A stretch of 37,668 bases of DNA from a virus. The stretch lies in IMG/VR virus record IMGVR_UViG_3300042516_000330, positions 1 through 37,668 of that record. One strand, given 5' to 3'. Below, piece by piece: positions 4,481 through 37,668 of this stretch (within the stretch, counting starts at the first letter, position 1; each line of letters opens with the position of its first letter). A program made the translations under genes and the position numbers. The notes under the pieces are model-generated. The model saw only the letters and a program-made list of their open reading frames with translations. It made no database searches and was not told the origin of the DNA.

Positions 4481-4978
4481 TCAGACTACCCGCGTTGGAT
4501 GCAACAATTTAACGGCATTTTCTGCTGCTTGTTTGGCAAGTTCTAGGTCGGCAAACAAACCAAGATACTTGTACTTGTTGTTTACCATAATCTGAGCCTG
4601 CCACTTCTGGTTGCGTTTATGCCACACGACGTTACGAACGCCAGTGGTGTTGCGTCCGCTATCAACGCAGTTGTGCCGGTTTTCCGAGGCAGTCACGTCT
4701 CGCAGATTGCTTATGCGATTGTCGCTGCGGTTGCGGTTGATATGGTCAATTTGATTGGTAGGCCAAACCCCATGCACGTATAGCCATGCTAAACGGTGCG
4801 CGTGGTGCTTTTGGCCGCTAACCTGAATCACAACGTAACCCAACGGGTTAACGTACCCGGCAAGGTCGCCAATCTTGGCTCTAGGGTTGCGGGTAACTTT
4901 ATTAGTAAAGACGCCGGTTGCCGGATCATAGTGCAGCAACTCTTTCAGGGTCTCTTGCGTTAGAATCTTCGTAGCCAT
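4481..4978 (-). CDS. HNH homing endonuclease with AP2-type DNA-binding domain
   Basis: A 165-residue free-standing nuclease. The HNH core runs over about residues 45-103, with His61 in HAHRLAW, the Asp-His pair 78-79 in QIDHINRN and Asn91 in the following NRISNLRD. A C-terminal AP2-like domain (about 112-150, TGVRNVVWHKRNQKWQAQI) binds DNA. It lies between terS and terL and has its own AGAGAGG Shine-Dalgarno. Its first 53 bases encode the last residues of TerS in another frame, so insertion probably replaced the TerS tail. Such genes spread by cutting uninvaded relatives at the same site. Confidence 0.92.
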   Translation of the reverse strand: MATKILTQETLKELLHYDPATGVFTNKVTRNPRAKIGDLAGYVNPLGYVVIQVSGQKHHAHRLAWLYVHGVWPTNQIDHINRNRSDNRISNLRDVTASENRHNCVDSGRNTTGVRNVVWHKRNQKWQAQIMVNNKYKYLGLFADLELAKQAAENAVKLLHPTRVV

Positions 4979-5664: not shown

Positions 5665-5712
5665 GCGGGGAATGTAACAGAAGGTTTGGCGAAAAGAAAA
5701 CAGTTGCAACGT

Positions 5713-5727
5713 GCAGGATGATCCTGC
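5713..5727. promoter_or_regulatory. 15-base palindrome upstream of the late block
   Basis: GCAGGAT-G-ATCCTGC, perfect 7-base arms around one base, 49 bases before the start of the Cys/His-rich gene. Size and symmetry fit a dimeric regulator operator; it could also form an RNA hairpin in a longer leader. Confidence 0.5.
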
Positions 5728-5740
5728 CGGGAGGCCGCGA

Positions 5741-5759
5741 TCTCGAACGTCCGTCGAGA
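5741..5759. promoter_or_regulatory. Hairpin with 6-bp stem
   Basis: TCTCGA and TCGAGA flank a 7-base loop. A second hairpin, ACCAG-CGCAT-CTGGT, follows at 5839-5853. Together with the palindrome they make the first 150 bases of the region rich in foldable sequence, perhaps a structured late leader. Confidence 0.35.
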
Positions 5760-5863
5760 CTGTGTGCCGAGGCGGAAGCGTTAAACGTTTAGTGCCTTAG
5801 ATGGTGGAGTCCTTTCCTTCAGTTACCTCTCGGTCGCTACCAGCGCATCTGGTCAGACGTTGC

Positions 5864-5915
5864 AAGTAAAGGATATCAAACAATCGTTTATTAGGGAAAG
5901 GGGTAAGTAAAGGAT
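5864..5915. repeat. Direct repeat AAGTAAAGGAT, two copies
   Basis: Exact 11-base copies at 5864-5874 and 5905-5915, 41 bases apart (about four helical turns). On the minus strand each reads ATCCTTTACTT, preceding the late leftward genes, so they may be activator sites. Confidence 0.5.
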
Positions 5916-6016
5916 GTACGGATGATGTGTGTACAAATTAAAAAAAATAAAAAGTTTTTGTAGACGCTTCGTAATCGTGACCGGTCACGCTCCGGCCCTA
6001 CCCCCCCTGTTGTTTT

Positions 6017-6226
6017 GCTGCAACGGATTGTTGTGCGTGTACCACAAGCCTGGATGCAAACGATTCTCATGTAGTTATGTGAACGAGAATTGTTTACATG
6101 ATGTTGCGTAGATGCAACACGTTGCGTTTATGCAACATGGATGCGTGCTGATGCGTCACTGCAACATGTGGTTTTTTTGCAACACAAGCGCTGAGTTTTA
6201 TGCAAGCACAGTGCTTTTATGCATTG
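6017..6226. repeat. TGCAAC iteron-like cluster
   Basis: Repeated TGCAAC or TTTTATGCA units: GCTGCAAC at 6017-6024; two adjacent 18-base units with GTTGC-N6-GCAAC symmetry at 6103-6118 and 6121-6136; CTGCAACAT near 6149; TTTGCAACAC ending at 6185; TTTTATGCAAGCAC at 6196-6209; and TTTTATGCATTG at 6215-6226. Spacing is about 18-25 bases. This resembles iterons bound by a replication initiator, or a multi-site operator. Confidence 0.6.
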
Positions 6227-6285
6227 TTAGTAAAAAACACGTCATTTCCCCAATTGATATCACTATGACGAAAGGCGACAAACTG

Positions 6286-6299
6286 AGAAGTAGACTTCT
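6286..6299. promoter_or_regulatory. 14-base palindrome AGAAGT-AG-ACTTCT
   Basis: Perfect 6-base arms with a 2-base centre, between the iteron cluster and the rightward promoter. Candidate operator; no protein partner can be assigned. Confidence 0.4.
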
Positions 6300-6406
6300 A
6301 TTTTACTAACATCAGGTCTAAGCCTTTGATTCTAGGCTTCTATCTTGTTAGTAGTCTCCAGCCTTTCAAGTACTGACAAATTTTCTGTTACTACTACAAA
6401 AAGCCC

Positions 6407-6436
6407 TTGCAAGCCCTTTTCAGGCTGTGCTATAAA
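6407..6436 (+). promoter_or_regulatory. Sigma70-like promoter for the rightward accessory block
   Basis: TTGCAA (-35) and TATAAA (-10) separated by 18 bases, about 75 bases before the first rightward ATG. It lies inside the cluster of TACTAAC repeats, two of which would fall in the transcribed leader. Confidence 0.6.
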
Positions 6437-6512
6437 ACAATTGTTTACAGAAATAGCGTTTGGTTAGTGCTTTTCACTACTACGCTACTAACAAACTACT
6501 AACAGGGAAATT

Positions 6513-8330: not shown

Positions 8331-8540
8331 ATGTCACAAAATGAAACCATTCGGGCCGCGTTACTAGCGGGCCGCGCGATCACGCCATTAGAAGCGCTTC
8401 AGGAATTTGGCTGTTTACGGCTAGCCGCCAGGATTCGAGACTTGCGCCAGACTGGCATGGATATTGAGTGTAAAAACGTTATCCGAAACGGTAAGCGCTT
8501 TGCACGCTACAGACTGAGGGGGGCCGCCAATGCGCTCTGA
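8331..8540 (+). CDS. Small helix-turn-helix protein, 69 aa
   Basis: Sixty-nine residues with the pattern ITPLEALQEFGCLRLAARI (17-35), followed by a basic wing RNGKRFARYRL (52-62). This is typical of small phage/plasmid winged-helix proteins in which the region ITPLEAL-FGC-RLAARI-LR forms the HTH. It could bind the operators of the 5.7-6.5 kb region, or DNA during replication; target unknown. A GGGAG site precedes the ATG. Confidence 0.8.
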   Translation: MSQNETIRAALLAGRAITPLEALQEFGCLRLAARIRDLRQTGMDIECKNVIRNGKRFARYRLRGAANAL

Positions 8541-9033: not shown

Positions 9034-9056
9034 GGGGGGCGCAAGCCCCCCTTTTT
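9034..9056 (+). terminator. Rho-independent terminator of the rightward block
   Basis: GGGGGGC stem, GCAA tetraloop, GCCCCCC, then five T. Its T tract overlaps the stop codon of the opposing helicase gene. In the other orientation it has no U tract. Confidence 0.92.
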
Positions 9057-10374
9057 ATTTCACAATAGTCAGTGTGTAGGGCGCTTCCAGCATGTTGCGT
9101 ATTTCAGTCTTCGGGCGCTTGGCATATTCAGGCGCCACCCAGGCGTGCTTGGGTGTACTGAATTCGCGGCTCTGTACGCGGCCGAAGTCTTTCCAGCCAC
9201 TTTCCCGAAGCGCCACGAAAACCATTTCCCGTGTCGGTCCCTGGCATACCTTCGACAATTCTGCGATCACATCGGACCATGGGGAACCGATCACACCACG
9301 GGCGAACAATCCCCGACGCTCGCGCACCATATCGGCCAAATACAATTCTCCGCCACTCATGCCCAAATCGATCATGGATATCTTGGCATCGGTTAGCGGC
9401 GGAGTGGCCCCAGGATTAAAGGCGCTCACGTCGCGCTGATCGAGCCACGCGGCTACAGCATCGAACCCGCCACCCTGATACCACCCCCACAATTGGCGGG
9501 CCTCATAATCGCTCATGCGCGGCGCTTCGGACCATATAACGAACCAGCGACGATCATCCGCCGGTATCGTTATCGGTGCGCGATCGTTACTGAACGACAG
9601 AACGAAAACCCGATTCATTACATAGTACGGGTGCATCTGTTTCTTATTGACTAGCAACAACTCAGGCGGTGCCGCGATCACGGGCTTTAAATTGTTTTCC
9701 ATCACACGGCGATCCTCGCCGCGTTTGTTCCGAATTTCATTCAGCACGATGACCTCGGATTCATACGAATAGCCCCAGGCGCCTGCGACCTCTTCGGCAC
9801 GGGCCACGGCTACGTTTTGCAGGCTAGAGCCGCCAATCGAGTACAGGAAAGGCGCCCATAATGTGTCCTTACCGCTCCCAGGCACCCCAGTGTGCAGCAC
9901 CGCGTGGTTTATCTTGCGGGCCGGGTATTGGCGCTTGAATGCCATCACATTTAGCACGTGTTCGCGCTCGGCCTGGTCCGGCACCATGCGCTCGGCGTGT
10001 TCCAGCCACGGGCTTACGTCGCCCGGTACGCCTGCTGGGCGTGCGTTATGCCATTTGTTAGCGTAGGCGCCTGTGCCTTTACGAACCAGCATAGACTCGC
10101 CTGCCGCATAGGTTAGCCCGGTCAGCAAGTGACTACCCATAGCGGTGCGGTTTTCATCGAAAAACGTGGCCGCTTCTACCCTGCGCGACTTGTTATGGAT
10201 CGAATAGCAGGGATGCCCTCGATATATCGCATTAAAGGAATACCGCGTGTATTCCTGGCGAGTCACCACGTCAAAAAAGTAATCGCCCTCGGCCACGTAC
10301 ACAAAGCGCTTGAACCACTCTGCGGGCAAAAGGTTCGAGATATCGTTTTCAGCCAATGTATCGTAATCGTCCAT
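9055..10374 (-). CDS. SF3-type phage helicase (DUF5906/NrS-1-like), no primase domain
   Basis: 439 residues from the chosen start (446 if started at 10395). Numbered from the longer form, the P-loop GVPGSGKD is at 170-177, the Walker B-like EVIVLNE at 214-220, the sensor-like LSFSND at 266-271 and DDRRW at 280-284. It should unwind DNA at the phage origin. Related proteins often carry an N-terminal primase-polymerase; only about 150 residues precede the P-loop here, with no such motifs seen. The chosen ATG has GAGGGG six bases upstream, whereas 10395 has none. It is the last gene of the early leftward block. Confidence 0.87.
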   Translation of the reverse strand: MDDYDTLAENDISNLLPAEWFKRFVYVAEGDYFFDVVTRQEYTRYSFNAIYRGHPCYSIHNKSRRVEAATFFDENRTAMGSHLLTGLTYAAGESMLVRKGTGAYANKWHNARPAGVPGDVSPWLEHAERMVPDQAEREHVLNVMAFKRQYPARKINHAVLHTGVPGSGKDTLWAPFLYSIGGSSLQNVAVARAEEVAGAWGYSYESEVIVLNEIRNKRGEDRRVMENNLKPVIAAPPELLLVNKKQMHPYYVMNRVFVLSFSNDRAPITIPADDRRWFVIWSEAPRMSDYEARQLWGWYQGGGFDAVAAWLDQRDVSAFNPGATPPLTDAKISMIDLGMSGGELYLADMVRERRGLFARGVIGSPWSDVIAELSKVCQGPTREMVFVALRESGWKDFGRVQSREFSTPKHAWVAPEYAKRPKTEIRNMLEAPYTLTIVK

Positions 10375-10425
10375 TGCAAACCCCTCGCCCGCCATGTAGT
10401 CTGATCGGGCATCGTTAGTTCTCCT

Positions 10426-10782: not shown

Positions 10783-11058
10783 TTAGAACCCCAGTGGATC
10801 GTTCAGATCAGCCTTTGCCCAGTTGTCCTCAGTCAGAGTACCAGCAGGCATTTCGTTCTTCGGCGGAATCTTTTGACCTTCCTTTAACTGGACGCTAATG
10901 GACAAAAAGTTATTGCCCTGCTTGCTCGCCTTCTTCCAGGCTGACAGCCGGTACTCCGTGCCGCCCACGTTTATGTCACCAGTAAAGTCGGGGCGCTTCT
11001 CATTGCCTTTCTTATCGTTCGGAAACAAAACGCCACGGTTCGTGTTATCAAAATTCAC
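10783..11058 (-). CDS. SSB-like small beta-rich protein, 91 aa
   Basis: Ninety-one residues beginning NFDNTNRGVLFPNDKKG, then a series of beta strands (KRPDFTGDINVGGTEYRLSAW; NFLSISVQL) and an acidic tail ending DLNDPLGF. This pattern fits small phage ssDNA-binding-like proteins with one OB-type fold. The acidic tail recalls SSB tails that recruit partners. Position between exonuclease and helicase genes agrees. Overlaps the exonuclease stop by four bases. Confidence 0.7.
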   Translation of the reverse strand: MNFDNTNRGVLFPNDKKGNEKRPDFTGDINVGGTEYRLSAWKKASKQGNNFLSISVQLKEGQKIPPKNEMPAGTLTEDNWAKADLNDPLGF

Positions 11059-13828: not shown

Positions 13829-14040
13829 TGTGGTTCCCTCAGTTTGGCGGAAGCAGCGTCGATAGCAGCAAGGCACTCGGCAAACGCTTGGTGCAGTTTA
13901 AAAGCGCCTTCGGCTTCGATGCGGTTGAGTTCGTTCAAGCCTTCGATGACGTTGAAGGCTGCGTATTCTGCACGGCAGTGCAGTTCCATGAGTCTGTCGC
14001 GCTCCTGCTCTTGCAAGATGCGAAAGTCGTCTTGTTCCAT
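13825..14040 (-). CDS. First gene of the early leftward operon, 71 aa helical protein
   Basis: Seventy-one residues, almost entirely helical and acidic (MEQDDFRILQEQERDRLMEL; ELNRIEAEGAFKLHQAFAEC). GGAG is seven bases before the ATG. It is first behind the strong leftward promoter and coupled to ERF, so it is made early and in quantity. A longer in-frame start at 14139 would extend through the operator and promoter and was rejected. Function unknown. Confidence 0.72.
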   Translation of the reverse strand: MEQDDFRILQEQERDRLMELHCRAEYAAFNVIEGLNELNRIEAEGAFKLHQAFAECLAAIDAASAKLREPQ

Positions 14041-14056
14041 CGTAGTCTCCAGTAAG

Positions 14057-14071
14057 CGGGGCCGATCCCCG
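14057..14071 (-). promoter_or_regulatory. 5'-end hairpin of the early leftward transcript
   Basis: CGGGG and CCCCG flank five bases, located where transcription from the leftward promoter should start. Such a 5' stem could stabilise the mRNA. Confidence 0.45.
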
Positions 14072-14077
14072 GAGTTA

Positions 14078-14105
14078 AGTATACGCATGTTGACTATGGT
14101 GTCAA
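14078..14105 (-). promoter_or_regulatory. Strong early leftward promoter
   Basis: On the minus strand: TTGACA (-35, complement of 14100-14105) and TATACT (-10, complement of 14078-14083), 16 bases apart. The -35 is a consensus match and the -10 differs at one position. Predicted start near 14071, about 30 bases before the first ATG. Confidence 0.85.
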
Positions 14106-14106
14106 C
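14089..14106. promoter_or_regulatory. Operator GTTGAC-N6-GTCAAC between divergent promoters
   Basis: Perfect 6-base arms around TATGGT. Each arm contains most of a -35 hexamer, one for each direction, so one bound dimer should block both promoters. The Cro-like protein encoded alongside is the obvious ligand (inference). Confidence 0.8.
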
Positions 14107-14118
14107 AGTCGTTACAGT
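14090..14118 (+). promoter_or_regulatory. Rightward promoter of the Cro-like gene
   Basis: TTGACT (-35) and TACAGT (-10) with a 17-base spacer. The -10 ends six bases before the ATG, so transcription should begin at or next to the start codon. Confidence 0.7.
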
Positions 14119-14124
14119 GCGCTC

Positions 14125-14298
14125 ATGACACCGAAGCAACTACTAAAGATTTATGGTTCCCAAGCGGAGATCGCTCGGGCGTTAGGCGTGACTCGTCAGG
14201 CCGTGCTGCGCTGGTTCAAGGAAAACAAGATTCCTGCCCTGCGGCTGTATCAGATTGAATGTGTGGTGAAGCCCAATGATCCAGCAGCAGATCGTTAG
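14125..14298 (+). CDS. Cro-like repressor, 57 aa
   Basis: Fifty-seven residues with an HTH: QAEIARALGVTRQAVLRW (13-30), then FKENKIPALRLYQIE (31-45), in the YdaS/Cro manner. It lies beside the divergent promoters and their shared operator. No Shine-Dalgarno; together with promoter spacing this implies a leaderless message like lambda cI from PRM. No larger CI-type repressor or integrase is present, so it probably tunes the early genes and not stable lysogeny. Overlaps the next gene by 23 bases. Confidence 0.88.
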   Translation: MTPKQLLKIYGSQAEIARALGVTRQAVLRWFKENKIPALRLYQIECVVKPNDPAADR

Positions 14299-37225: not shown

Positions 37226-37588
37226 TCAAGCCAAGAAACGTAACTTGTACAGAGTAGAAAGATACAGCGCGACAATCTCGTCAATAATGTTCTGAATCGA
37301 CGTTTCTTCCTTGTCGCAGAACTTATACCGATTGGCTTCAATTTCAGCCAACTGGTCTTGCAGAAACTCGACAACGTTGCTGGTCTTCTTAGCCGACATT
37401 AGCGTGATCGGCCCGATCAGGCCGTGACGACCTTGATAAGCCTCCGCAAACGCATCGGCAAGATCAACTACGCCGGTATAAAACTTACCCAACGCCTTGT
37501 GTTTGGCGTAACTACGGGTGTTCAGATGCACGGAATGGGTCACATCCCGCGCTAGGAACAACATGCCTACAAAATCAGCCGGTTTCAT
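37226..37588 (-). CDS. Helical ferritin-like-looking phage protein, 120 aa
   Basis: 120 residues, nearly all helical: MKPADFVGMLFLARDVTHSV, then NTRSYAKHKALGKFYTGVVD (23-42) and ADAFAEAYQGRHG (45-57). The series H-x3-H and E/D at helix positions recalls four-helix-bundle carrier proteins, although metal binding is not shown. Related proteins are found near portal genes in aquatic phages. On the circle it starts inside the portal stop (ATGA). Confidence 0.78.
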   Translation of the reverse strand: MKPADFVGMLFLARDVTHSVHLNTRSYAKHKALGKFYTGVVDLADAFAEAYQGRHGLIGPITLMSAKKTSNVVEFLQDQLAEIEANRYKFCDKEETSIQNIIDEIVALYLSTLYKLRFLA

Positions 37589-37668
37589 ACCATTCCCTCG
37601 CCCATGTCAGGAGTTTCACGTGGAACTTCCATAGGCATTAAATCTGCGCTTGACATCATACCTGAAAT
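37542..37668. repeat. Right copy of 127-bp terminal direct repeat
   Basis: Exact copy of the first 127 bases of the window. See the left copy for interpretation. Confidence 0.95.
37585..37668 (-). CDS. Partial copy: C-terminus of the portal protein
   Basis: The last 27 codons plus stop of the portal gene, present a second time only because of the contig overlap. Complete at the left end of the window. Confidence 0.9.
   Translation of the reverse strand: MSGMMSSADLMPMEVPRETPDMGEGMV

Follow-up and report, generated by a model that had tools for sequence, protein, structure and literature searches.

The region between 5.9 and 6.5 kb of this genome is probably (we put the likelihood at about 0.6) an iteron origin of replication served by the SF3 helicase of a circular-mapping phage, in which one repeat array, array 2, would be bound by the helicase and another, array 1, would be accessory. 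That the region is a replication origin is likely from its anatomy, its conservation and an array 2 motif that follows the helicase. Both arrays exist and are kept in place in relatives; array 2 varies with the type of helicase, and array 1 is constant. We infer origin activity, helicase binding, a melting site and a role and reader for array 1 along the following lines. The phage's own SF3 (DUF5906) helicase would be the initiator, its C-terminal winged helix binding the iterons of array 2 (TGTTAGT/ACTAACA, 6225-6504); it would open nearby A-rich DNA and then load itself, after which host primase and polymerase would act. Array 1, which lies between a conserved A-tract element and array 2, would be the target of another protein, a dimer whose specificity does not change, and would most likely aid recruitment of the host replisome, or regulate firing, where the helicase has no primase. 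If so, a family of uncultured freshwater phages gains a testable origin and initiator. The initial annotation had proposed a candidate origin here, with the TGCAAC repeats of array 1 as the site of an unknown initiator. The anatomy, the conservation and array 2 speak for the region; the assignment of the TGCAAC repeats to the initiator finds no support.

The genome and its relatives

The window, that is the whole stretch of DNA analyzed (37,668 nt), is the IMG/VR virus record IMGVR_UViG_3300042516_000330 and looks like the genome of a freshwater phage. An exact 127-bp terminal repeat (positions 1-127 and 37542-37668) has the appearance of an assembler k-mer overlap, so that the genome maps as a circle of 37,541 bp. 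The record is classed as linear, yet looks like a complete circular genome of that length. Relatives, dozens in number, were gathered by TerL, GP88, helicase and pattern searches, and a blastn search of the intergenic region against cultured phages returned no match. TerL relatives occur in Rhodoferax and Burkholderiales MAGs, which suggests a burkholderial host.

The region of interest is a long intergenic stretch between leftward terminase-side genes and a rightward operon. From left to right, it contains an RNA element, an A-tract/TGACCGG/GGCCCTACCCCCC element, a TTGTG-CACAA dyad, array 1 and array 2. GC skew, which had been suggested as a check, changes sign at the region in none of 11 genomes, and is uninformative as evidence for an origin.

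An iteron array that follows the helicase

Array 2, which was absent from the initial annotation, clusters more significantly than array 1. Its TGTTAGT/ACTAACA iterons start at 6225, 6305, 6346, 6487 and 6498, and the density of five in 300 bp compares with a shuffle maximum of two. Most relatives have phage-specific iterons at this position, often as pairs with a 9-bp spacing. For several type-A relatives, the top motifs proposed by an automatic 8-mer finder were unclear, and targeted motif counts were used instead.

The array 2 motif was found to vary with the SF3 helicase, and more precisely with its C-terminal winged helix. A helicase C-terminus of the form GRV[QM]S pairs with TGTTAGT/TACTAAC iterons, GR[IV]YS with TAGG[TC] iterons, and GRLHS mostly with TGGGCAA iterons, while TGGGTCA and TGGACAA iterons accompany other forms. 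TAGG iterons dominate in 8 of 9 cases with Y408, against 5 of 41 without it, for a residue picked after inspection and in counts that ignore phylogeny. Iterons specific to the helicase are expected of an SF3 origin, and such specificity is what these counts, taken regardless of phylogeny, display. Two relatives illustrate the pattern. The early genes of L087 are 84 to 98% identical to those of the window, its helicase is at 57%, and it has seven GCCTAAC and no TACTAAC; in L280, the early genes are at 42 to 98% (ERF 85%, YqaJ 88%), the helicase is at 98%, and five TACTAAC are retained. Few recognizable copies of array 2 are present in L004 and L109 (71% helicase), and L192 has few clear iterons.

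Judged from these sequence comparisons, array 2 is likely to consist of binding sites for the SF3 helicase, and appears a better initiator site than array 1. Co-inheritance alone could also cause the linkage, array 2 and the helicase gene being only about 3 kb apart. The natural series of winged helices and iterons (TGTTAGT, TAGG[TC], TGGGCAA, TGGGTCA, TGGACAA) could reveal how SF3 initiators read DNA.

The helicase as candidate initiator

The phage had been described as having no known initiator, a statement that we revise: the best candidate for this role is its own SF3 helicase of the DUF5906 type. The gene (9055-10395, minus strand) encodes a protein of 446 amino acids without a primase domain, which domain search and a structure model point to as a candidate self-loading initiator. 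DUF5906 scores above its gathering threshold, as for an element-encoded helicase of SF3/D5 type, and the protein matches the C-terminal half of phage primases. An AlphaFold2 model (mean pLDDT 86.7) has its best match, in sequence as in structure, in the C-terminal (helicase) region of the NrS-1 polymerase (6k9c, E 1e-17), and also matches SaPI5 Rep (7ola, E 1e-8). Residues 373-437 (9085-9279, minus strand) are predicted to adopt a winged-helix-like arrangement, and are the candidate iteron reader from the model and the motif comparison. The early proteins scanned include an SSB-like protein of the replication module (10783-11058, minus strand), a YqaJ exonuclease, ERF and VRR-NUC; no primase domain or polymerase was found among them.

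Three known systems can be compared with this arrangement. SaPI Rep and SCCmec Cch2 bind origin iterons via their C-terminal domains (PMC7581432). The window helicase has a related fold, as the match to SaPI5 Rep indicates, with its C-terminal domain as putative iteron reader. However, SaPI origins are directly downstream of rep, whereas array 2 (6.2-6.5 kb) is about 2.6 to 3 kb from the helicase gene (9.05-10.4 kb), and so not directly downstream of that gene; moreover, array 2 has as neighbors another dyad array, unrelated to it, and an RNA element. Given this distance, the region would work like a SaPI Rep/Cch2 origin without being a SaPI-type member. Synthesis by the NrS-1 primase-polymerase begins at a defined site, TTTGGTTA (PMC8718748), and NrS-1 has two single recognition sites (PMC7102993). 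The enzyme combines a PrimPol with a DUF5906-type helicase region, the latter being the best match of the window helicase, but the window helicase is without a PrimPol domain, and two single sites are not an array. The alpha protein of phage P4 is a helicase that binds the origin through a domain at its C-terminus, and iterons are present at the P4 ori. Compared by description, these two traits would be shared with the window; P4 alpha, however, carries its own primase, unlike the window helicase.

Composition of the TGCAAC array

Array 1 extends from 6019 to 6183, and comprises two 16-bp dyads, GTTGCGTNNATGCAAC, with an 18-bp period, plus half-sites. TGCAAC occurs five times, at 6019, 6113, 6131, 6160 and 6178. 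On the plus strand, dyad 1, GTTGCGTAGATGCAAC (6103-6118), found by pattern search and TRF and kept in relatives, is followed 18 bp later by dyad 2, GTTGCGTTTATGCAAC (6121-6136), detected by the same two methods, and then by a degenerate third copy with two mismatches, GATGCGTCACTGCAACATG (6150-6168). The hexamer count adds half-sites at 6019-6024 and 6178-6183. TRF reports an 18-bp unit in 1.9 copies at 6103-6137. Two further plus-strand units, TTTTATGCA (6196-6204 and 6215-6223, together 6196-6223), are common to the close relatives L083 and L084 only; with the five TGCAAC they make up the seven related units first described. The two inverted units are indeed in tandem, their length being 16 bp and their period 18 bp, rather than the 18-bp length given to them. 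An A-tract (5935-5953) does lie 5' of the array, but the wording that the array directly follows it is loose, since 65 bp separate the end of the tract from the first half-site, and 150 bp separate it from the dyads.

Bare TGCAAC is not over-represented genome-wide (34 observed for 28.7 expected), and five copies per 210 bp equal the maximum of 200 dinucleotide shuffles (mean 2.5, maximum 5). Against shuffles, the hexamer cluster alone is borderline, unlike the pair of dyads: none of 200 shuffles placed two dyads within 210 bp (maximum 1). A search with an extended form of the dyad that allowed up to 3 mismatches returned 6 matches for 0.26 expected. Conservation in relatives is the strongest evidence we have that the array is not a chance product. 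A one-mismatch copy of the dyad, GTTGCGTTTATGCCACACG, is present at 4610-4628 within the HNH endonuclease gene. The dyad may resemble CytR-type operators.

Instead of serving as protein sites, the tandem dyads might form hairpins in DNA or RNA, for single-strand initiation or as a terminator. On the plus strand, the G-T mismatch that is conserved within the dyad can still form a pair, and a terminator-like match is found at 6102-6119. However, the single-strand DNA fold of the array is no better than that of shuffles (z -0.07), the inner bases of the dyad vary among relatives, and L020 has the site on the other strand, so that we consider this scenario highly improbable.

Distribution and possible readers of array 1

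Relatives with the same flanking genes carry array 1 in place; the loss that had been named as grounds for refutation did not occur. Among phages with a lone, primase-less helicase, 28 of 31 have dyads in this intergenic region, the first two usually 18 bp apart, versus 1 of 26 among phages with a primase-fused helicase. A fused helicase with array-1-like dyads is that of L282. Across helicases from 100% down to 53% identity, the array 1 motif is unchanged.

This constancy, and the near absence of the array with the primase-fused form, are the reasons for which we consider array 1 unlikely to be the initiator's site. The idea that the TGCAAC array is nevertheless the initiator's own binding array, and that array 2 serves another protein, is consistent with tandem dyads close to an A-tract at a conserved position. 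It is quite unlikely, as the motif stays fixed despite the divergence of the best initiator candidate to 53%, with which array 2 does change, and as the array is missing from nearly all relatives in which the same helicase is fused to a primase. Array 1 is best read as a dyad array within the origin that has an accessory or regulatory role. Its distribution would fit a helper role where a host primase must be recruited. The split between lone and fused helicases also separates whole early gene modules, so that common descent explains the distribution equally well: the link to a primase-less helicase may be descent only, array 1 tracking the whole early module.

Which protein would read array 1? 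An HTH protein had been proposed, and is a possible reader. The candidate is an HTH_39 winged-helix protein of 69 amino acids (8331-8540, plus strand), present in 31/31 lone-helicase phages and 0/26 others, although this co-occurrence is shared by the whole early gene module. GP88, the other protein initially put forward, was found in only 6 of the 31 lone-helicase phages, and is an unlikely reader. The Cro-like protein (14125-14298) does not suit either: its own promoter contains GTTGAC-N6-GTCAAC, overlapping divergent -35-like boxes, and not the array dyad, and GTTGC-N6-GCAAC, which a Cro/CI-type operator would have there, was absent from the promoters of Cro-like genes in the 13 phages compared. 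We also observed, at 14040-14125, a divergent promoter-like sequence with TTGACA-N16-TATACT on the minus strand; it separates the ERF operon from the Cro-like gene and is kept in relatives.

Alternatively, array 1 may have no part in replication and serve as operators for a regulator of the phage, either HTH_39 or the Cro-like protein. Dyads of 16 bp suit a dimeric regulator, and the occurrence of HTH_39 just given is in its favor. Against it, the likely promoter of the rightward operon, read by eye and clearest in L002 and L087, is inside array 2, more than 200 bp to the right of array 1; a promoter scan gave no hit near array 1; and the dyad is missing from the promoter of the Cro-like gene. 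We regard such an operator as rather unlikely, and retain the accessory array.

The A-tract element and packaging

Upstream of terS, a conserved plus-strand element (5935-6007) is formed by the A-tract (5935-5953), TGACCGG (5978-5984) and GGCCCTACCCCCCC (5994-6007). The A-tract/TGACCGG/GGCCCTACCCCCC element gave 53 matches at E<=1 in a first set in which some were weak and some redundant, and relatives that lack array 1 also have it upstream of terS. From its sequence, this A-tract/C-run element is a candidate unwinding element or pac.

Array 1 is also located upstream of the terminase genes, and repeat arrays are known at the packaging sites of other phages, so one may imagine that it is part of a cos or pac signal bound by the small terminase subunit. 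We find this very unlikely. The helix-turn-helix stretch of TerS is nearly identical in L090, which has no array 1; this makes TerS an improbable reader and argues against array 1 as pac. Contigs of 11 near-complete genomes break at scattered points, circular overlaps being found among them, and the ends overlap by 123 to 127 bp in five near-complete genomes (the window's record and four others of its family). Such scattered breaks disfavor a cos end at the array, and no fixed genome end was found there in the 11 genomes compared. For a packaging signal, the A-tract/C-run element is a better candidate than array 1.

Some smaller motifs were noted. The dyad TTGTGCGTGTACCACAA (6031-6047, plus strand) is conserved in close relatives. 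Dyads such as GCTAATCATTCTCATTAGC (L002) and GCAAATGATTCCCGTTTGC (L090), at 6056-6095 and near the C-run of L090-type relatives, may resemble Fur boxes. Perfect DnaA boxes (TTATCCACA or its complement) exist in two relatives, near 5683 in L004 and in the homologous intergenic region of L283.

A covarying RNA element beside the arrays

At 5705-5864, on the plus strand and opposite to terS, lies a structured RNA element of about 160 nt with six helices, supported by covariation and a covariance model. In an alignment of 31 sequences, pairing is kept in 99.4% of cells, and 13 of the 40 pairs show changes in both partners, versus 0 to 2 in slid controls. In the plus-strand consensus structure, G-U pairs (162) far exceed A-C pairs (6), which points to the plus strand. 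The element did not match phages by blastn, was not found in 303 bacterial genomes by an RNA model search, and had only chance-level matches in Rfam 15, at gathering as at relaxed thresholds, so no family could be assigned. A strongly covarying RNA without an Rfam match is thus brought to light beside a likely origin, and it may be the newest item of the region.

A role of this RNA in replication or packaging is speculation. The RNA, whose reading direction leads to the A-tract, the C-run and the two arrays, might be a part of the origin that primes or licenses replication, which would make a new, RNA-assisted type of helicase-initiated phage origin; we see this as a long shot. The element is present in dozens of phage contigs. 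Of the contigs found by pattern, 73 have a TerS match, and in every one of these the element is on the strand opposite to terS. The covariance model also detects it in further phages near GP88 genes (L010, L011, L017 and L023), in which no relative of the window's terminase was detected.
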